Of a stretch of DNA of 41,666 bases, positions 7,812-31,000 are shown in pieces (the first letter of the stretch is position 1; every line of letters begins with the position of its first letter). Origin of the DNA: Syntrophomonadaceae bacterium. Its GTDB lineage: Bacteria > Bacillota > Syntrophomonadia > Syntrophomonadales > Syntrophomonadaceae. The stretch lies in NCBI GenBank assembly GCA_012729835.1, contig JAAYCK010000101.1:1-41666 (forward strand), read 5' to 3'. The notes under the pieces are model-generated. The model did no database searches. It worked only from the letters and a program-made list of their open reading frames with translations, and was not told the DNA's origin. Both the position numbers and the translations under genes were made by a program.

Positions 7812-9002
7812 TTACCCCTTGGTTGCGGCTGCTTCCTCATAGGCCTTGCTGCGTTTCAGGAGTTGGTCGACTTGTTCGCCGGCGGCGCGCTGATTGTCGG
7901 TGCCATGCTGCAGGAAGTAGATAGTGTTTTCGATCCGTTCCTGGCTGGCCTTGATCTCTGACCAGCGGGATTCCTCTTCAAAAAGGTTCATGCAGTCCTG
8001 AATGCTGTGACCCCGACCGGTTTCCAGATAGTAGCGGAAGGTGGACAGGGTTTTAGAATCCTGGTAGATAGAATTAACAAATGATTTTACTATTATTGAG
8101 TTATAGATCTGCAGATTGCTCTGGGCTTGCCGCAGTTTTTCCTCTGCGCTGTCGATATCTTCATAGCATAAATCCAGAAATTGCTGATAGAAGGTTCCCC
8201 AGTTCTCCAATACTGCCTTGTATCGGTCGCAGGCCTTTTCATATTCACGGTATCTAATGATGTATACTTTCATTTCGTGGTTGAAGCTTCCTTCACGCTC
8301 ACCGACCTTACGCCTACGATTCAAGAGTCCGCTCAAGGAGATTAGATTGCCCTGTGTTGGCGTATCTGCCTCCTCTTTTCTTGGTTTATCAGGAAGTATA
8401 TCCGGTTCACCGGGTAGAAGCTCTATGGTTTCCACCAGGGCGTAGCGATTTTGCAGGAGTTTGTTCAGATAATTGATATGACGATTGATCTTCTCAATTT
8501 CGCGAAGCGAGGCCAGGCACATATTAATATCTCTGATTAGTTCGGCTTCACTGCGGGCCACCCTTTTACCGTTTTTTCGAGTCTTCTGATAGGATGCCAG
8601 ATCATTATTCAGTGGGTGTTCGGCGTTCAATGTTTGCATGATATCCAGGTCATGAGCGGTAAGGGCTCCGCTCTCACCGATACTGGTCTTAACAAAGTAC
8701 AATCTAGTGTTGGTCAGCGGATAATAGTAGGGCCCGACACCTTCCAGGTATTCATTGTTTTGCAGGGTCTCCAGATCACTTCCGACCTTAAGGTCATCAA
8801 AAAGAAACTCAGACCATTTGCGGATCGGTGCATTAGGATTCATTTCCTCTCCAGCGATTTCCTTTATATCCTGGCAAAGCTCCAGAGGTATCTTAAGATA
8901 CGAGTTGTAGTAATAAAAAATAATCTGTCGGGGCTCATAATTGACCACCAATGATAGATCCGGAAAATGCGGTTCATCTTTTTGCAGAAAACTAAAAAAC
9001 AC
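7812..9002 (-). CDS. Unrecognised helical protein
   Basis: About 396 residues, not recognised. I prefer the GTG at 9002, which has GAGGGGG eight bases upstream, over an in-frame GTG at 9029 without a site. The product starts MFFSFLQKDEPHFPDLSL. The first 110 residues are mixed and aromatic-rich (FYYYNSYLKIP). The rest is mostly charged helix with coiled-coil character, split near residues 200-240 by a Pro/acid-rich linker. There is no signal peptide or membrane span, so it is probably cytosolic. It converges on the rhomboid gene and diverges from ybaK. Confidence 0.8.
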   Translation of the reverse strand: MFFSFLQKDEPHFPDLSLVVNYEPRQIIFYYYNSYLKIPLELCQDIKEIAGEEMNPNAPIRKWSEFLFDDLKVGSDLETLQNNEYLEGVGPYYYPLTNTRLYFVKTSIGESGALTAHDLDIMQTLNAEHPLNNDLASYQKTRKNGKRVARSEAELIRDINMCLASLREIEKINRHINYLNKLLQNRYALVETIELLPGEPDILPDKPRKEEADTPTQGNLISLSGLLNRRRKVGEREGSFNHEMKVYIIRYREYEKACDRYKAVLENWGTFYQQFLDLCYEDIDSAEEKLRQAQSNLQIYNSIIVKSFVNSIYQDSKTLSTFRYYLETGRGHSIQDCMNLFEEESRWSEIKASQERIENTIYFLQHGTDNQRAAGEQVDQLLKRSKAYEEAAATKG

Positions 9003-22264: not shown

Positions 22265-22292
22265 TTGACGCATTTTCCAAGTGAATTATAAT
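22265..22292 (+). promoter_or_regulatory. Sigma-A promoter of the sao-like operon
   Basis: TTGACG, 16 bases, TATAAT. The start would be near 22299, leaving about 80 nt of leader before saoT. TATAATGT repeats 25 bases downstream (22312). No clear MerR- or ArsR-type operator is seen. Confidence 0.7.
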
Positions 22293-22378
22293 GTTATATG
22301 GGAATACAAAGTATAATGTATTTAAATAAGCATGAGACCCGGGTGTTTAGAAGGAGAGCGATCGGGAGGGAAGTGAGC

Positions 22379-22642
22379 ATGGAAAAGGTGAAGGTGGAAT
22401 TTATTAATACTTGTTCCTGTTGTGATGGTTATGGGGATGTATTAAGAGAACTAGCTGCCAGACATCCCCAGCAGATAGATCTGAAGATATACTACATGGG
22501 CAAGGATTTTGATTATCTTTCGAAATATGGGGTAATCAACCGCGGGACTTTAATCATCAATGAAAAAAACCGGTTTGATGACTTAAGCAGAAGGGTAATT
22601 GAAAAGGCCGTTAAGACAGCCCTGGACGAAGTCAATGATTAA
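22379..22642 (+). CDS. saoT: Thioredoxin-like small protein, SaoT-like
   Basis: An 87-residue protein starting MEKVKVEFINTCSCCDGYGD. I chose the ATG at 22379, with GGGAGGG upstream; an ATG at 22298 would sit at the transcription start. The motif Cys12-Ser-Cys-Cys15 sits where a thioredoxin fold has its redox site, after the first strand. It has no signal peptide, so it is cytosolic. Family knowledge: thioredoxin-like (seleno)protein SaoT, from memory of NCBI family names; here cysteine replaces any selenocysteine. It overlaps the permease gene by 8 nt. It could relay thiols or metal to the permease (inference). Confidence 0.8.
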   Translation: MEKVKVEFINTCSCCDGYGDVLRELAARHPQQIDLKIYYMGKDFDYLSKYGVINRGTLIINEKNRFDDLSRRVIEKAVKTALDEVND

Positions 22643-23738
22643 TGACTTTCTGGCATCATTTTGGCAGTTATTAAATATCAGTGGTTTCTGGCTGGTAGTA
22701 AGCTATTTGCTCTGCAGTGTATTACATATCGTATTGCGACCTGAATTCCTACAAAGAAATTTGGGTAATACCAGGCTGTCCTCTCTAGTGAAGGCTACTA
22801 TATCAGGGATGCTTTTGCCCATTTGCAGCTGCGGAGTTGTCCCGTTGGCTTTAAGCCTTTATCATTCGGGCGCTTTTCTGGGTCCTACTCTGGCATTCCT
22901 GGTGGCTACACCCATAATAAATCCGGCGGCGGTCATACTGGCCTTCGTTCTTTTGGGACCGCAGCTAACGGCGATATATATTATCACCGGATTCCTGCTG
23001 CCGATGATAATTGGGGTACTGGGTAATAAATTTGGAAAAGACGAACTCATATCACCAGTAGCAGTAGCTATGGCCAATGCTGCTGCTGGCTCTGCCCCTA
23101 TTAACTCCGCTGCTGTTAAGATTCCCTGGAGTAAAAAAATTGCCGGGGGCCTGGATTGGGGAGTGCGCAGCCTGGGGCTGCAGGTGAGCCGCTATGTATT
23201 GGTGGGGTTGGTGCTGGCGGCGCTGTTGCTCACCATTATCCCGGTATCTTTTATTCAGGATTATCTCAGCCGGCCGGATATGATTTCTCTTTTAGGTATT
23301 GCTGCGCTGGGAGCTATTATGTATGTCTGCGCAGTGGGGCACATTCCCTTTATTGCTGCGCTCGTTGCCGCGGGTGCCGCTCCGGGTGCAGCCATAGCCT
23401 TTCTCTTAACCGGGACTGCTACCAATTTACCGGAGTTATTCAGCATTTTAAAACTGATTGGCAAGCGAACTATTGTAATATACACCGGCACAGTAGTATT
23501 CTGCAGCTTCGTGATCGGCTATATTACGAGTTATTTGCTTATGCCTGGATTTACGCCGGTCTTTGATTTAAGCGGCACTCAGAACAGTATTGCTTTGGCG
23601 AACAAACTGTCTCTGACGATGCCCGTTGGGGTGGAGTATATTTGTTCGGTCATTATACTGGCGATGGGCATTATTGCCTGGCGGCCTGTAGTCAAGGAAT
23701 GGTTTATGAAACTGGGACGGAGAACGGTAAATGCTTAG
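22635..23738 (+). CDS. saoE: Permease of the ArsP/DUF318 family, SaoE-like
   Basis: A 367-residue polytopic membrane protein starting MINDFLASFW, with its ATG inside the end of saoT. The family signature is LPICSCGVVPLALSLYHSG (Cys64 and Cys66), then FLVATPIINPAAVILAF. A second repeat has YVCAVGHIPFIAALVAAGAAPGAA and GTATNLPELFSI. Members of PF03773 include ArsP, which exports methylarsenite, so an organometal or soft-metal efflux substrate is plausible. It matches what NCBI annotation calls efflux transporter SaoE. It overlaps the next gene by 8 nt. Substrate is unproven. Confidence 0.85.
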   Translation: MINDFLASFWQLLNISGFWLVVSYLLCSVLHIVLRPEFLQRNLGNTRLSSLVKATISGMLLPICSCGVVPLALSLYHSGAFLGPTLAFLVATPIINPAAVILAFVLLGPQLTAIYIITGFLLPMIIGVLGNKFGKDELISPVAVAMANAAAGSAPINSAAVKIPWSKKIAGGLDWGVRSLGLQVSRYVLVGLVLAALLLTIIPVSFIQDYLSRPDMISLLGIAALGAIMYVCAVGHIPFIAALVAAGAAPGAAIAFLLTGTATNLPELFSILKLIGKRTIVIYTGTVVFCSFVIGYITSYLLMPGFTPVFDLSGTQNSIALANKLSLTMPVGVEYICSVIILAMGIIAWRPVVKEWFMKLGRRTVNA

Positions 23739-24207
23739 GAATAAAAGTGCAGCCATATTTTTACTGTTTCTTTTTCTTACTGGCTGCAGCGGAGGTGCTC
23801 CGAAGGAAGCGACTGCTCCAGGCGAGGAAGAACCTGTTGCCATGGCCACAGATCATAGGCTATATAAGCATTTTCTGGCGGCCTATGGTGAAAAAACGCC
23901 GCTGCTGACCGGAGTTAATGACATTAATGACGACGGGCAGGAGGATCTAATTGTTATCTATCAGGATACTCCTGACACCAACAAGATGATCGCCATCTGG
24001 GAACAGAATGGGGAAATGATTGTTTCCAAACCTACTCCTGCTCCGGTAGAGAATTATCGTATTGAATGGCGGGATATAGATAATAAAGCACCGATTGAAT
24101 TAGTAGTGTCGGGTTCTAAGGGGGTGAATATTGGATACGCCATATATCGCTGGGAGAACGGGAATCTGATCAATCTCTTCGGGGAAGGTATGGAAAAGTG
24201 CTGCTAG
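23731..24207 (+). CDS. saoC: Lipoprotein ending in Cys-Cys, SaoC-like
   Basis: A 158-residue protein with a lipoprotein signal (FLLFLFLTGCSGG). It has a Ca-binding-like loop NDINDDGQEDL, then beta-rich sequence, and ends EKCC-stop: the two final residues are cysteines (TGC TGC TAG). That terminus is the hallmark of the family named Cys-Cys-COOH (seleno)protein SaoC. In some relatives one Cys is selenocysteine; here both are ordinary. It would sit on the outer face of the membrane, where the free C-terminal thiol pair could bind a metal. It overlaps saoE by 8 nt. Confidence 0.8.
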   Translation: MLRNKSAAIFLLFLFLTGCSGGAPKEATAPGEEEPVAMATDHRLYKHFLAAYGEKTPLLTGVNDINDDGQEDLIVIYQDTPDTNKMIAIWEQNGEMIVSKPTPAPVENYRIEWRDIDNKAPIELVVSGSKGVNIGYAIYRWENGNLINLFGEGMEKCC

Positions 24208-24252
24208 TGTAAGTGACAAGCCAAAAAAGCTGTAGAGAGGGAGTTGGAGAAA

Positions 24253-25422
24253 ATGAAAAAGAGCAAGCTAAACGTTCTGCTGGTTGTTTTGATGTTAGGG
24301 ATATTGGTTTTATCCGGCTGCAGCGGGCAGAAAACACAGGAGTCTGAGCAGACCGGGGGTGATTTAGCGGCTCAGTTGGCCGATGAATACAAGCTGGAAG
24401 CCTTAAGTGCCGAAGATGCTAATTACACGATCAATATGGGCTATTATAACTGTGATCATATGACAGCGGCGTGTATCGCTAAGGATACCGGCATTTTTGA
24501 TGCCTTAGGGCTAAAAGTAAACCTGACCGGCAACGGTAATGTACCGGAAGCCATGTCAGCGGGGAAAATGGATGTGGGTTATGCCGGTTGGACTACTACC
24601 CTGAGAGCGGTTCCGAAAGGAACACCATTGTTTATAGCTGGTCAGAACCATACCGGAGGAGCGGAATACCTGGTAGCCAGTAAAGAGATCAAAAGCGCAG
24701 CAGATTTGGTCGGGAAAAGAGTCTCTTTCGGCACTGATCCTGAAGAGAACAGCATCAATTGGGCGGAATGGGCTGATCAGCTGGGAATTTCCGCTGATAT
24801 CACTCTCTATGAGAATTTCAATATGTCCGATCAGGACGAGTATTTTGCCCTAAAAGCAGGGAAGCTGGATGCTTATATTTGCTGTGATCCCTGGGGATCA
24901 ATGGCTGAATACGAGGACACCGGCTGGGTAGTTATACGCCAGAATACTGAGCGGAATGGCTTCCAGGGTACCTGCTGCAAGATAGCTATGCACACTGATT
25001 TTGCCCAAGCTCACCCCAGATTAGCCGAGCGGGTTTTACTGGCCCATACCTTGGCGGTTCAGTATATGTATAATCATCCCTATAAAGCTGCTGAAGTATT
25101 TGCCAAGAACTACAGTGTGCCTCTGGATGTAGGCTTAATGACTATGTGGAAAAAGACCAATGAAGAAGGCCGCACTATTTCCTGGGATCTAATAATGGAG
25201 GAAATGGAAAACCAACTGGCCACTATGAGAAAGTACGGCGTGCAGAACGACATCAATAATGTTAACCTGGCAGACTATGTTGATACCACCTATATGGATA
25301 AGTGCGGCGCCAAGGACTTCCAGACCTTCATCAAAAATGAAGTAGACCCGGTATTTCCTCTGGGAATGAGCTATGAGGACTGGAAAACCAAAGCTATGGA
25401 AGTGGACAATATTGAAGCGTAA
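24253..25422 (+). CDS. ABC transporter substrate-binding lipoprotein of the sao-like operon
   Basis: A 389-residue NMT1/THI5/SsuA-like binding protein. I start it at ATG 24253 (GGGAG nine bases upstream), not at an in-frame TTG at 24244. Lipobox LSGC at Cys23. It has the NitT/TauT-type pattern (MSAGKMDVGYAGW, DLVGKRVSFGTDPEENSI). Unusual for the family, it has close cysteines: Cys67 and Cys74, Cys210-Cys211 (YICCDPW) and Cys241-Cys242 (GTCCKIA). These fit a thiol-rich site for a soft metal. I believe NCBI names this family SaoX, but am unsure, so no symbol is given. It is followed 32 nt later by a second binding protein. Confidence 0.85.
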   Translation: MKKSKLNVLLVVLMLGILVLSGCSGQKTQESEQTGGDLAAQLADEYKLEALSAEDANYTINMGYYNCDHMTAACIAKDTGIFDALGLKVNLTGNGNVPEAMSAGKMDVGYAGWTTTLRAVPKGTPLFIAGQNHTGGAEYLVASKEIKSAADLVGKRVSFGTDPEENSINWAEWADQLGISADITLYENFNMSDQDEYFALKAGKLDAYICCDPWGSMAEYEDTGWVVIRQNTERNGFQGTCCKIAMHTDFAQAHPRLAERVLLAHTLAVQYMYNHPYKAAEVFAKNYSVPLDVGLMTMWKKTNEEGRTISWDLIMEEMENQLATMRKYGVQNDINNVNLADYVDTTYMDKCGAKDFQTFIKNEVDPVFPLGMSYEDWKTKAMEVDNIEA

Positions 25423-25454
25423 AACAAACCCTAGTATAAGCAGAAGGCTGAACA

Positions 25455-26249
25455 ATGAAAAACAAAAGCCGGCTGTATGAAGGAATTATAGGTGCGGCGA
25501 TAATCATTCTGGCCCTGACCGTCTGGCTGAGTTCCGGGAAAGAAATGAGCGGCTTGAGAGTGGCCTGCAATGATGACGCGGCCGGTTTGCTGATCACTTA
25601 TCTAGCCAGCCGGGACAGCGGAGCTCTGGAGGTTGTGAATATGAGCTACCAGCAATTACAGGATTGCTGCAGCAGCCAAACAGAGCTCGCCTTGGCCGCA
25701 GGAAATTTTGATCTGGCAGTACTTTGTCCGGACGGTGCGGACAAGCTGGTAGCCAGCGGGCAGCCTTATGTAGTTTTGGGTGAGGTAGTCGACAACGCTC
25801 TGATACTGGTCACTACTCAGGATAAGTTGCCGCAAACAGTCGGCTATATGAACGGCCGGGAGATTCAGAAAGAACTGGTGTGGTCCAACCTGGACAGCAG
25901 CATCGAAATGCAGCCTATGCTGCCGGCTGGCCTGCCCTATGCCCTGGAAAGAAAAGCTGTGGATGGGGTTGTTCTGGATATTTTGGGGGCGCTGAAAATA
26001 GAAGGTTACCGCACGGCCTTACCGGCGGATTATCCTACTTCCGTCCTGGCAGTACATAAAGATCTGCTTGGCACTCCAGAGTTGGCAATTTTTATAAAAG
26101 CCTATAACCAAGCAGTGACAGAAATGAATAGTACCGGGGTTCTGACCAGGGAACTGGCCGGTAAATTAGAACTAGAAAACAGCAGTGCAGAGGTAAAAGT
26201 ATGGAAAGACATGGGAGTACAATACCGGATGTTGGCAATGCCAGATTAA
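25455..26249 (+). CDS. saoB: ABC transporter substrate-binding (seleno)protein, SaoB-like
   Basis: A 264-residue protein with an uncleaved-looking N-terminal hydrophobic segment (EGIIGAAIIILALTVWLSS) and no lipobox, followed by a periplasmic-binding-protein-like fold (LRVACNDDAAGLLITYLAS, AVLCPDGADKLVASGQPYVV). Cys71-Cys72 in LQDCCSSQ is a vicinal pair. Relatives called SaoB carry cysteine or selenocysteine at such a site (recalled from family names). It overlaps the permease gene by 49 nt. It is shorter than the preceding binding protein, so two non-identical receptors may serve one transporter. Confidence 0.78.
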   Translation: MKNKSRLYEGIIGAAIIILALTVWLSSGKEMSGLRVACNDDAAGLLITYLASRDSGALEVVNMSYQQLQDCCSSQTELALAAGNFDLAVLCPDGADKLVASGQPYVVLGEVVDNALILVTTQDKLPQTVGYMNGREIQKELVWSNLDSSIEMQPMLPAGLPYALERKAVDGVVLDILGALKIEGYRTALPADYPTSVLAVHKDLLGTPELAIFIKAYNQAVTEMNSTGVLTRELAGKLELENSSAEVKVWKDMGVQYRMLAMPD

Positions 26250-27034
26250 GCCTGGGGGATGCTTTTGATAAATATCGAGGCAGTTTCTATACCCTGATCG
26301 TGTTGGTTATCCTGATGATCATCTGGAACTTAGCCGCCAATAAAATACAGAACACTTTGCTGCTGCCCTATTTTTCGGAAACAGCTATGGAGTTTATAAC
26401 CGCCTGGGGTGATCCCGTCATCATGTTCAATTTGGGGTTGACCTTAAAAAGGGTATTTACCGGTTTTTTATACGCTTTTATCATTGGCGTTCCCCTGGGA
26501 CTTCTCATGGGTTATTCGGCAACTGCCATGCAGTCACTGGCTCCTTTAATGAATTCCATTCGCCAGGTGCCGATTATGGCCTGGGTGCCCCTGTCCATCA
26601 TTTGGTTTGGATTAGGAGATGGGCCGACGGTTTTTTTGATTGCCATGAGCGCGGTCTTCCCTTTGGCCATTAATACCATTGCCGGCGTGGAGGGAATCGA
26701 CTCCAACTACTATAATGCTGCCCGCAGCATGGGTGCTTCCAGAAGAGACCTTGTCCGCGATATTGTGGTACCGGGCGCGATGCCCAATATTTTAACGGGC
26801 TGCCGCCTGGCCATGGGAGCCGGGTGGATGTCGGTTATCTGTGCCGAGTTTATTGCTACCAGTGCCGGTTTTGGCTTTCTAATGGTAGAGGCCCAGGTGC
26901 GCCTGGAAACTGCCCAGCTTTATGCCCTGATGGTCATGTCAGGATTAGTGGGTTATGCCATTGATAAAGTCTTTGTCGCCTTTGAGAGAAAAATGACTTC
27001 ATGGAGATTTAAAGATGGCTTTGTTGGAAGTTAA
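26201..27034 (+). CDS. saoP: ABC transporter permease, SaoP-like
   Basis: A 277-residue BPD-type permease of the SsuC/TauC/NitT group with about six membrane spans. The EAA loop is NAARSMGASRRDLVRDIVVPGAMPNIL, given here in two pieces: NAARSMGASRR and IVVPGAMPNIL. The ATG at 26201 lies in the end of saoB, with AGAGGT upstream; I see no other good start. It pairs with the binding proteins and the ATPase to form an importer. NCBI family naming would be ABC transporter permease SaoP. Its 3' end overlaps the ATPase gene by 20 nt. Confidence 0.85.
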   Translation: MERHGSTIPDVGNARLSLGDAFDKYRGSFYTLIVLVILMIIWNLAANKIQNTLLLPYFSETAMEFITAWGDPVIMFNLGLTLKRVFTGFLYAFIIGVPLGLLMGYSATAMQSLAPLMNSIRQVPIMAWVPLSIIWFGLGDGPTVFLIAMSAVFPLAINTIAGVEGIDSNYYNAARSMGASRRDLVRDIVVPGAMPNILTGCRLAMGAGWMSVICAEFIATSAGFGFLMVEAQVRLETAQLYALMVMSGLVGYAIDKVFVAFERKMTSWRFKDGFVGS

Positions 27035-27902
27035 GGATATAAGAAAAACCTTTACCCAGAAGAGGAAACCTCCTCACATCGTATTGGAGAACTTGTCCTT
27101 TAGTGTGGAACGGGGGCAGTATGTTTCACTGCTGGGGCCTTCCGGGTGCGGCAAAACTACACTTTTAACTATGCTGGGAGGCTTCATGTCGGCTGATACG
27201 GGTCAGATATACCTGGCTGGCAAAAAGGTGGAGGGCCCAGGTCCGGACCGGGGATTCGTCTTTCAGAATTATGCCCTCTTTCCCTGGATGACGGTGCAGG
27301 AGAATATTCTTTATTCTCTTAAAGTGCAGAACTTCAACAAAAGGGAAAGGGAAAAACGTTTACAGGAGTTGCTGGATATATCTCATTTACACGGCAGCGA
27401 GAACAAATACCCCATCCAGCTTTCCGGTGGTATGCAGCAAAGGGTAGCAGTGGTAAGAGCGTTAGCCAGCCGACCGGAAATACTGCTCCTGGATGAGCCC
27501 CTGGGAGCCATAGATTTTCAAATGCGCGAGCTTTTACAGGAAGAATTGGCCGCATTGGTGGAAGAAGCCCAAACTACTGTGGTGATGGTTACCCATGATG
27601 TCAATGAATCAGTTTATTTAAGTGACCGCGTCATCGTCATGTCGGCCAACAAAGGACGGATTATCAAAGATATGTATATCGATCTTCCCCGGCCTCGTTC
27701 GCGCCAAAGCCAGGCTTTTAAGGAATATGTTTCCGAACTGACCGAGCTGGTACGCCAGGCTTTCCGGGAAGGAGGAAGTTACCGGCAGGCCGATATACCG
27801 GCAAGGGATAGGGGCGTTGATAATAACTTTGTTGCTTCTTATAACCGGATGCACAGCAGGTATACCAATGTTGCCAATGGCAGAAGCAGAGCTGTCAAAT
27901 AA
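27015..27902 (+). CDS. saoA: ABC transporter ATP-binding protein, SaoA-like
   Basis: A 295-residue ATPase of the SsuB/TauB type. Walker A is GPSGCGKTT, the Q-loop region [12 protein letters not shown], the signature LSGGMQQR, Walker [13 protein letters not shown] and the H-loop VTHDV. A C-terminal extension of about 45 residues after the normal end is basic and probably disordered ([15 protein letters not shown]). It powers the SaoP permease. Translation is probably coupled to saoP by the 20-nt overlap. saoD follows after 24 nt. Confidence 0.88.
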
Positions 27903-27926
27903 ATAATTATAAAGGAGAGGGATAGA

Positions 27927-28259
27927 ATGAGAGTGGCTTACATTTTTTCCACCAACAATGCGCAAAGGATACTGGACAAAATGATCATTCCCCAGATGCT
28001 GGAGGAAAGGCACGGAGTGGAGGTAGCAGGAATGATGTTCTTTTTCGATAATACCTTCCTGCTTACCGAAGGCAGCAGTACCGGTGACAAATTGCAGGAG
28101 ATCTACGAAAAATACGGTACCATTCTGATGGGCTGCGATATGTGCACCATTGAAAGAGGCATTGACGACAAACTGATCAAGGGCGCGGCTATAGGCTGCT
28201 TCCCGAACCTTTACGCTGTTTTGGGCAGTGCCAATATTGATCAAGTAATTACATTGTAA
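27927..28259 (+). CDS. saoD: DsrE-related protein, SaoD-like
   Basis: A 110-residue single-domain protein of the DsrE/DsrF-like fold: a start strand (MRVAYIFSTNN), GVEVAGMMFFFDNTFLL and YEKYGTILMGCDMCTIERG. Cys70-x-x-Cys73, plus Cys91 in AIGCFPNLY, make a likely thiol site. DsrE proteins carry sulfur or related atoms on cysteine. NCBI naming has DsrE-related protein SaoD. It has a GGAGAGGG site and is the last gene of the unit; three hairpins follow. It is cytosolic and could receive the imported ligand (inference). Confidence 0.8.
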   Translation: MRVAYIFSTNNAQRILDKMIIPQMLEERHGVEVAGMMFFFDNTFLLTEGSSTGDKLQEIYEKYGTILMGCDMCTIERGIDDKLIKGAAIGCFPNLYAVLGSANIDQVITL

Positions 28260-28286: not shown

Positions 28287-28323
28287 CAATAGCAACCTCC
28301 TTATCAAAGCGAGGTTGCTATTG
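28287..28323. terminator. 13-bp hairpin after saoD
   Basis: CAATAGCAACCTC and GAGGTTGCTATTG pair perfectly around 11 bases, 28 nt after the saoD stop. The T-run is poor, so termination is likely but not certain. Confidence 0.55.
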
Positions 28324-28593: not shown

Positions 28594-28884
28594 GTGCAGA
28601 TTAAACCGTCAGCAAGCATCAGACAGAATTACAATGAAATTGCGGCTTTATGTAAATCCTCTGGTGAGCCAGTTTATCTTACCAAAAACGGCGAGGGCGA
28701 TCTGGTGGTAATGGATATTGAAGCGTTTACCCGCCGGGAGAAAATGCTCAAGCTGCGAGAGGAGCTGTTGGCCGTCGAGGAAGATCGTCTGGCTGGTCGC
28801 TCCGGAGTGACACCGGATGAGTTGGACAGCTATTTGGACAGCATAATCGACGAGGTGGAACATGGAAAAAAAACCTCAGTATAA
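28594..28884 (+). CDS. Type II antitoxin, Phd/YefM family
   Basis: A 96-residue protein starting at GTG after AAGGAG. The N-terminal part (IKPSASIRQNYNEIAALCKS to EPVYLTKNGEGDLVVMDIEA) is the Phd/YefM DNA-binding fold. The rest is an acidic helix that would wrap the toxin. It overlaps the toxin gene by 23 nt, so the two are translated together. It should repress its own promoter by binding the dyad at the -10. The pair lies just downstream of the sao-like operon, but I see no functional link. Confidence 0.88.
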   Translation: MQIKPSASIRQNYNEIAALCKSSGEPVYLTKNGEGDLVVMDIEAFTRREKMLKLREELLAVEEDRLAGRSGVTPDELDSYLDSIIDEVEHGKKTSV

Positions 28885-29179
28885 GGTGATGGTCTCTGAC
28901 CGTGCCCGTCAAATGTTGGCGAGTCATATTCGATTTCTCGCACAGATTAATCCTGTTGCCGCCCGTCGGACTAAGAACGAGTTGATAGACGCTATCCGTT
29001 CCCTTGCCATTATGCCTGAACGCTTTCCATTTCTAAATGCTCAATTCATACCACTGAACAAATATCATAAGATGTTTGTCGAAAAACGCTATCTAATTCT
29101 TTATCAGATCAAGGATCAGACGGTTTTCGTTGACTATATCGTGGATTGTAGACAGGATTATGGCTGGCTGGTGCAATAG
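28862..29179 (+). CDS. Type II toxin, RelE/ParE family
   Basis: A 105-residue basic protein with the RelE/ParE layout: an early helix (SDRARQMLASHIRFLAQIN), a second helix (AARRTKNELIDAIRSL), then MPERFPFLNAQF and strands KRYLILYQIKDQTVFVDYIVD. It would cleave mRNA at the ribosome (RelE-like) or poison gyrase (ParE-like); the sequence alone does not decide. The start ATG lies within the antitoxin gene. Confidence 0.85.
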   Translation: MEKKPQYKVMVSDRARQMLASHIRFLAQINPVAARRTKNELIDAIRSLAIMPERFPFLNAQFIPLNKYHKMFVEKRYLILYQIKDQTVFVDYIVDCRQDYGWLVQ

Positions 29180-29586: not shown

Positions 29587-29639
29587 TAATGGTGACTGCT
29601 TATAAAGTAATGAAGGCTTGTTCGTTTATTAGGAGATAT

Positions 29640-29918
29640 ATGGTTAGAAATGTGAGCTATTTATTAGATGGCGAGTTAACAGTCGGGTGTTATTCTCAGG
29701 ATGAGCGAATTATTAAAGGGCTGAGATCCAGGTGCTACAAGTTATCAGCATCTGTCGGATATGCCTTCGTACCTGGTTTCGACAGGGCGGGAGACTCTGG
29801 GGACGAGGAGCCTCCCGTTTCATCCAATCAGAATGAGTGGCTTCATTGGTTGTTTGAAAACCAAACGGCAGTAAAATTGGCAGTAAATTTATCGAAACTG
29901 AATATCAGAAAAAACTAA
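29640..29918 (+). CDS. Doubtful small ORF
   Basis: At most 92 residues from an ATG four bases after AGGAG (an ATG at 29589 has no site). It starts MVRNVSYLLDGELTVGC and ends with a basic tail (KLNIRKN). No family is recognised. Its middle is GC-rich and forms CGGGAG/CTCCCG, more like non-coding repeat DNA. The terminator right after the stop shows that transcripts end here, so either this gene or a non-coding RNA is possible. Confidence 0.3.
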   Translation: MVRNVSYLLDGELTVGCYSQDERIIKGLRSRCYKLSASVGYAFVPGFDRAGDSGDEEPPVSSNQNEWLHWLFENQTAVKLAVNLSKLNIRKN

Positions 29919-29946: not shown

Positions 29947-30031
29947 TGGTGCCAGAGGTGGGACTCGAACCCACACGCCTCGCGGCACACGATTTTGAGT
30001 CGCGCTCGTCTGCCAATTCCGACACTCTGGC
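29947..30031 (-). tRNA. tRNA-Leu (anticodon CAA)
   Basis: An 85-nt class II tRNA with encoded CCA. Acceptor GCCAGAG pairs with CTCTGGC; the anticodon loop CTCAAAA gives CAA; a long variable arm and T-loop GGTTCGAGTCC are present. It reads UUG codons. Confidence 0.95.
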
Positions 30032-30142: not shown

Positions 30143-30195
30143 AGTAAATTGTCCCCTTGTTATATAACTATCTTTATCTAATAATGAGTTCTAAC

Positions 30196-30963
30196 TTATT
30201 TGATGCCCATGCGGATTGCACCGTCGAGACGGATTGCCTGTGCGTTCAGATAAGCGTTTTCTACGATAGCGCATACCAGTTGAGCAAATTCCGGGGGATC
30301 GCCCATGCGCTTCGGGAAGGGAACCTGTGCACCCAGGGAATCGCGAGCTGCCTGCGGCAGAAGCTGCATCATCGGGGTGTCGAAGATACCAGGAGCGATA
30401 GTGTTGCAGCGGATGCCGTCTCTGGAAAGGTCGCGAGCGATCGGGAGGGTCATGGATACTACGCCACCTTTGGATGCGGCATAGGCAGCCTGGCCCATCT
30501 GGCCTTCAAATGCGGCTACGGATGCAACATTGATCAAACAGCCTTTTTCGCCCTTTTCATTGGGTGTGTTCTTGGACATCTGCCATGCGGCGAGTCTCAT
30601 AACGTCAAATCCGCCAACCAGGTTGATGTCTACAACCATCTTGAACCATTCCAGGGGAGTGGGGCCGTCCTTGCCGATAATCTTAGAAGCGCTGCCGATG
30701 CCGGCTGCATTTACCAGGATATCCAGCTTGCCGAACTTTTCAACAGCAGCTGCTACTACTGCTTCGTTCTCGGCGGTAACCGTTACGTTACACTTTACAA
30801 ATGCTGCTTTGTCACCAAATTTGGCGGCAAATTCCTTACCCTTTTCTTCGTTCATGTCGGCAATGATTACTTTTGCTCCTTTGTCTACCAGCATTTCGAC
30901 TGCTGCGGCGCCCAGTCCGGATGCGCCACCGGTCACGACTGCTACTGCACCTTTAATGTCCAT
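30196..30963 (-). CDS. SDR family 3-hydroxyacyl-CoA dehydrogenase (type II-like)
   Basis: A 255-residue short-chain dehydrogenase. NAD-binding VTGGASGLGAAA, NAAG at the fourth strand, catalytic Ser in INVASVAAFEGQ and the YAASK Tyr-Lys pair are all intact. The close fit of the whole chain (APGIFDTPMM near the end) to human HSD17B10-type enzymes suggests oxidation of 3-hydroxyacyl-CoA with NAD. It would add a third, unrelated hydroxyacyl-CoA dehydrogenase to the two hbd genes here. GAGGAGG precedes the ATG. It is a single gene with its own promoter and terminator. Confidence 0.88.
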   Translation of the reverse strand: MDIKGAVAVVTGGASGLGAAAVEMLVDKGAKVIIADMNEEKGKEFAAKFGDKAAFVKCNVTVTAENEAVVAAAVEKFGKLDILVNAAGIGSASKIIGKDGPTPLEWFKMVVDINLVGGFDVMRLAAWQMSKNTPNEKGEKGCLINVASVAAFEGQMGQAAYAASKGGVVSMTLPIARDLSRDGIRCNTIAPGIFDTPMMQLLPQAARDSLGAQVPFPKRMGDPPEFAQLVCAIVENAYLNAQAIRLDGAIRMGIK

Positions 30964-31000
30964 CAGAATTCCTCCTCTAAATAATTTTGTGTATGATTGG

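Follow-up and report, generated by a model that had tools for sequence, protein, structure and literature searches.

Does an operon belong to the selenocysteine-assisted organometal (SAO) system if it encodes cysteine wherever selenocysteine (Sec) would be expected and lacks an adjoining lyase and, if so, what would it do? The question is raised by contig JAAYCK010000101.1 of a Syntrophomonadaceae bacterium (GenBank assembly GCA_012729835.1), of which we analysed a stretch of 41,666 nucleotides (hereafter, the window) that carries an eight-gene operon, saoT-E-C-X-B-P-A-D. The organometal function of SAO is a computational proposal (Haft and Gwadz 2023, as cited in PMC13188914 and PMC10418091). 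Judged from its sequence, the window operon is almost certainly a genuine and complete member of this system.

Assignment of the operon to SAO

All eight proteins scored above the NCBIfam equivalog cut-offs for SaoT, SaoE, SaoC, SaoX, SaoB, SaoP, SaoA and SaoD, each under the name that an earlier note on this DNA, made without database searches, had given it (Table 1). The competing assignment considered in that note was a known uptake system for a sulfonate, nitrate or a thiamine precursor that lacks a protein ending in Cys-Cys-COOH (CC-COOH). The corresponding NCBIfam models scored far below their cut-offs, including SsuA_fam (93.2 against 163.5), TauC (148.2 against 342), ntrB (127.1 against 209) and ntrCD (234.4 against 291.8), and almost every relative with a sufficiently long contig has this gene set around SaoX. 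The cut-off of the SO_0444 Cu/Zn exporter model NF033936 was not reached either (183.8 against 300). SAO resembles the Ssu and Tau transporters in transporter class and in the fold of its binding proteins but, apart from the low scores, differs from them by the presence of two binding proteins with invariant cysteines and of an extra exporter, a lipoprotein, and thioredoxin-like and DsrE-like proteins.

When 398 genomes of the phylum were scanned for SaoB, nine scored above cut-off, including that of the window; all eight genes are present in each of the others with enough contig. In addition, a pattern search of named genomes provided 80 SAO loci, in which the eight Sao families, the lyase SaoL, the double-cubane-cluster reductase, its activase and a molybdopterin oxidoreductase were mapped with TGA read as a residue. 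The SAO gene set is kept across Bacillota, Synergistota, Fusobacteriota, Thermodesulfobacteriota, Actinomycetota and Chloroflexota, among other phyla. The nearest operons found come from Syntrophomonas (SaoX 89% identical), to which the host, an anaerobe, is related. The operons of Syntrophomonas and its relatives (L021-L027) share with the window a core devoid of Sec and, in most cases, the T-E-C-X-B-P-A-D gene order, with SaoX 71-89% identical. Some of them depart from the window operon: L026 encodes a Cys-type SaoL, a double-cubane protein and an activase, saoD comes first in L027, and saoT is reduced to its 3' part in L021. In the latter locus (Syntrophomonas sp. DTU018, around 8300-8400), unrelated letters stand where the promoter and the 5' part of saoT would be expected; the start of the operon may therefore be rearranged or may contain an assembly join.

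SAO occurs in Clostridioides difficile and in many anaerobes. The C. difficile system (for example, L080) has all eight families, the CC-COOH protein and the same Cys/Sec positions as the window operon, but carries Sec in SaoT, SaoB, SaoP and SaoL; furthermore, SaoL adjoins the operon, and saoD precedes saoT instead of being the last gene.

The architecture described in the earlier note, with eight mostly overlapping or tightly spaced genes, one promoter and a lipoprotein with a Cys-Cys end, was recovered in full: eight forward-strand open reading frames (ORFs) were confirmed at 22379-28259, and SaoC ends Glu-Lys-Cys-Cys-stop. The genes overlap by 8-49 nt (saoT/saoE, 8 nt; saoE/saoC, 8 nt; saoB/saoP, 49 nt; saoP/saoA, 20 nt) or are separated by 24-45 nt. 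With no gap longer than 45 nt, a single good promoter in front and a hairpin at the end, they form one operon. The probable promoter is the top promoter-like match of a region in which the total number of such matches is no higher than chance (15 against 11.6 +/- 4.1); a comparable -35/-10 pair (TTGACT, TATAAT) lies upstream of saoT in the related locus L024. The hairpin downstream of saoD was not among the matches of the pattern scan, which had a loop limit of 8.

Table 1. Features of the SAO operon in the window, with the NCBIfam model, score and cut-off for each protein
Feature	Position	Strand	Evidence
Probable sigma-70 promoter, TTGACG-16-TATAAT	22265..22292	+	11/12 match
saoT, thioredoxin-like; C12-S-C14-C15	22379..22642	+	NF040730, 130.5 bits, cut-off 65
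saoE, ArsP/SO_0444-type permease, putative exporter	22635..23738	+	NF040736, 475.9 bits, cut-off 325; PF03773, 179.4
saoC, lipoprotein, lipobox C19, end Cys157-Cys158-COOH	23731..24207	+	NF040734, 160.9 bits, cut-off 80
saoX, lipoprotein substrate-binding protein, SsuA/TauA fold	24253..25422	+	NF040735, 486.6 bits, cut-off 300
saoB, second substrate-binding protein; C71-C72, C91	25455..26249	+	NF040727, 234.7 bits, cut-off 140
saoP, ABC permease; C214	26201..27034	+	NF040733, 378.5 bits, cut-off 295
saoA, ABC ATPase	27015..27902	+	NF040729, 382.2 bits, cut-off 360
saoD, DsrE-related; C70-x-x-C73, C91, H29	27927..28259	+	NF040732, 179.2 bits, cut-off 169
Hairpin 3' of saoD, possible terminator; 10-bp perfect stem, weak T tract	28290-28299 with 28311-28320	+	Sequence inspection

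Cysteine in place of selenocysteine and the absence of SaoL

Two traits of the window operon, namely cysteine at every expected Sec position and the lack of SaoL, had been pointed out in the earlier note; the first was borne out by comparison with aligned relatives, and the second extends from the window to the entire assembly. SaoT, SaoB and SaoP have Cys at each known Sec site, and no in-frame TGA was found in the eight genes of the window; SaoT, SaoB and SaoP of 24 other loci contain no in-frame TGA either. Across the aligned loci, Sec is present at SaoT C12 in 14 of 71, in the SaoT C14 slot, which is less conserved than the other Sec-bearing positions, in 10 of 71, at SaoB C72 in 18 of 77 and at SaoP C214 in 45 of 76. 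In some loci, a TGA follows the terminal Cys-Cys of SaoC; it was rejected as a Sec codon, since it is where translation stops. Two saoX copies per locus were detected in L051, L066, L076 and L093, and one of the L093 copies contains an in-frame TGA.

Among the 68 loci in which SaoT, SaoB and SaoP are all readable, 25, including the window, have a Sec-free core of these three proteins. In ten of these 25, namely L035, L061, L083 and seven loci of Brachyspira, SaoL is still encoded in a Sec-type form, and no Sec at all was detected in the remaining 15. Of 50 SAO genomes, 24 have a match above cut-off to SaoL, a distant relative of MerB that mostly carries Sec where it adjoins the operon, and in 21 no SaoL was detected. 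Both a Sec-free core and the lack of SaoL are thus ordinary within SAO. The host assembly (3.13 Mb in 186 contigs, 99.2% complete) yielded no match to SaoL or to any MerB-like lyase.

A host incapable of Sec insertion does not account for the Sec-free operon, and this explanation was rejected: the genome search suggested in the earlier note revealed selA, selB and tRNA-Sec. The host can therefore make selenoproteins, yet uses Cys throughout the operon. As a sign of a general tie between SAO and the Sec trait, selB is too common: it is present in all nine SAO genomes but also in 263 of the 398 genomes overall. SelB was undetected (E value of 1e-60) in 5 of the 50 SAO genomes, several of which are metagenome assemblies and possibly incomplete. 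Since a Cys-only core needs no Sec decoding, it can be expressed in ordinary laboratory Escherichia coli, which brings assays of binding and transport within reach.

Conserved thiols and the proposed route of the cargo

What these proteins might handle is suggested by their thiols. Excluding the cysteines of the lipoboxes and of Walker A, 19 positions show 96-100% conservation of Cys or Sec across the aligned loci, and only SaoA has none of them: two in SaoT (C12, C15), four in SaoE (C64, C66, C232, C337), two in SaoC (C157, C158), four in SaoX (C67, C211, C241, C242), three in SaoB (C71, C72, C91), one in SaoP (C214) and three in SaoD (C70, C73, C91). SaoE residues are numbered here from the ATG at 22635; the conservation alignment began at 22638, and the numbers are one lower there. 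Conservation as Cys or Sec is complete for SaoT C12 and C15 (71 of 71 loci), SaoP C214 (76 of 76) and SaoB C72 (every aligned locus), and the CC terminus of SaoC is present in 74 of 74. By contrast, the residue at the SaoP site in five paralogous permeases of the same loci is S, V, F, S or F-type, and never Cys. The conserved Cys/His set of SaoX includes H69, within a C67-D-H69 motif, and SaoE combines a PICSCG motif (C64, C66) with C232, H236 and C337. The resulting chain of Cys/Sec residues, leading from the lipoprotein to the permease, the cytoplasmic CxxC proteins and the ArsP-type exporter, fits a thiophilic cargo.

We therefore consider it an even proposition, from the sequences, that SAO takes up a thiophilic organometal or organometalloid through SaoX, SaoB, SaoP and SaoA, hands it over between thiols and exports it through SaoE; the cargo we infer is organomercury- or organoarsenic-like. 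Under this scheme, SaoX, SaoB and the CC-COOH lipoprotein SaoC would capture the cargo outside the membrane through paired thiols, SaoP-SaoA would import it past the conserved permease thiol, the cytoplasmic SaoT and SaoD, with their CxxC motifs, would exchange it or reduce it, and SaoE would expel either the resulting product or the cargo as it came. Cleavage in this host might be performed by SaoT/SaoD or by an unlinked reductase, or might not occur at all. Mer operons with MerB follow a comparable logic of thiol handover. The window operon differs from them in that no lyase was found in the genome and in the combination of ABC import with ArsP-type export; MerA, MerT and MerP were not recognised near it.

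Several observations weigh against this scheme. We found no substrate test for any SAO system in the available literature, and no mer or ars resistance genes were recognised among the scanned neighbours. SaoD and SaoA clear their cut-offs narrowly, the other six proteins by wide margins. HgcA is above cut-off in 29 of the 398 genomes of the phylum sample but in none of the nine SAO genomes, so that this sample gives no hint of a link with mercury methylation, although the small expected number makes this comparison uninformative and the link was set aside. Finally, structure prediction places SaoX and SaoB, with high confidence, among the SsuA/TauA-type binding proteins: the SaoX structure model (pLDDT 90.6) has SsuA/TauA as its best PDB matches, and that of SaoB (pLDDT 92.0), which has no match in Pfam and the N-terminal helix of which is a probable membrane anchor, is SsuA-like. 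This resemblance to sulfonate and taurine binders makes an organosulfur or organoselenium cargo possible.

The corresponding alternative, nutritional uptake of sulfonate-like organosulfur compounds or of organoselenium compounds such as methylated selenide, with thiols and selenols serving as redox or chalcogen carriers rather than as metal ligands, is also consistent with the ABC components, which belong to the sulfonate/taurine/nitrate class, and with SaoD, a relative of the sulfur-relay protein DsrE. Furthermore, Sao and double-cubane genes have been grouped as putative selenium metabolism genes in some Mlp clusters (PMC10418091). We nevertheless regard it as improbable: soft metals or metalloids are suggested by the CC-COOH lipoprotein, the ArsP-type permease and the MerB relative that occur together in these operons, every sulfonate, taurine and nitrate model is far below cut-off, and none of the recurrent neighbours was recognised as a gene for desulfonation.

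SaoE invites yet another explanation, that of a system kept for standing efflux or detoxification, with an ABC part that would pass captured cargo to the exporter instead of importing it for metabolism. The ArsP-type character of SaoE, the retention of its CxC motif, C232, H236 and C337 in nearly all loci, and the absence of a lyase from the window are all in line with it. However, SaoX, SaoB, SaoP and SaoA form an ABC set of the importer type that includes two binding proteins and is needless for efflux alone, which makes pure efflux unlikely compared with uptake, thiol handover and export.

Candidate partner enzymes and neighbouring genes

Of the 49 loci flanked by at least 3 kb on either side, 34 encode SaoL within 3 kb, 24 encode the double-cubane-cluster reductase and 5 encode a molybdopterin oxidoreductase. 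A double-cubane gene would be expected this close by chance in an estimated 1% or so of loci, given about 1.7 reductase genes per SAO genome (15 above cut-off in nine genomes of 2-3.5 Mb). SaoL, the double-cubane reductase and the molybdopterin enzyme are all missing across the available stretch only in the window, L021, L037 and L095. In L054, L063, L064 and L082, the double-cubane reductase gene is located between core sao genes, inside the operon.

These counts are compatible with a modular role of the SAO core, as a transport and thiol-handover unit that serves exchangeable cytoplasmic enzymes, namely SaoL, a double-cubane reductase with its ATP-driven activase, or a molybdopterin oxidoreductase. 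We rate this as possible but short of an even chance and, with the same reserve, the partner in this host might be encoded elsewhere, for example, by the double-cubane gene at G000:C97:7070-8269. Both double-cubane copies of the host are on another contig, and the protein encoded at C97:7070-8269 groups with those linked to SAO in L058 and L064. At the genome level, the family is above cut-off in all nine SAO genomes as opposed to 117 of the 398 overall (simple hypergeometric probability of about 1e-5, not corrected for kinship), but nearly all members of the family to which the host belongs have a double-cubane protein. A single SAO-specific clade of double-cubane proteins was sought and not found, as the SAO-linked ones do not form one clade, which counts against modularity, as does the clustering of the C97 gene with genes for an MtaA-like methyltransferase and a corrinoid protein, perhaps its true pathway. 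More tentatively, SAO could be, instead of a pathway built around organomercury lyase, a Cys/Sec handover module for import and export with exchangeable catalytic partners, chiefly SaoL or the ATP-activated double-cubane reductase, and the window operon could be a reduced version in which the linked partner was lost; the reductase would then, no less speculatively, reductively cleave carbon-metal(loid) or carbon-chalcogen bonds. The frequent double-cubane neighbour provides a second testable hypothesis for SAO chemistry.

In the host, the genes for the MtaA/CmuA-like methyltransferase, the corrinoid protein and the double-cubane reductase are consecutive (G000:C97:5227-8269, L141), in an arrangement that resembles type I Mlp clusters (PMC10418091), and a second double-cubane gene with an activase gene is located at C97 12930-15049. 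A general tie of SAO to Mlp methyl-transfer clusters was rejected, with Mlp homologues near only one of the 80 loci (L071).

Upstream of the window operon are genes for a 3-hydroxyacyl-CoA dehydrogenase and a sigma-54 activator. Just downstream, a Phd/YefM antitoxin and ParE toxin pair (28594-29179) is followed by two ORFs without a Pfam match (29589-29918 and 30157-30984), between which a tRNA gene is encoded on the reverse strand (29950-30031).

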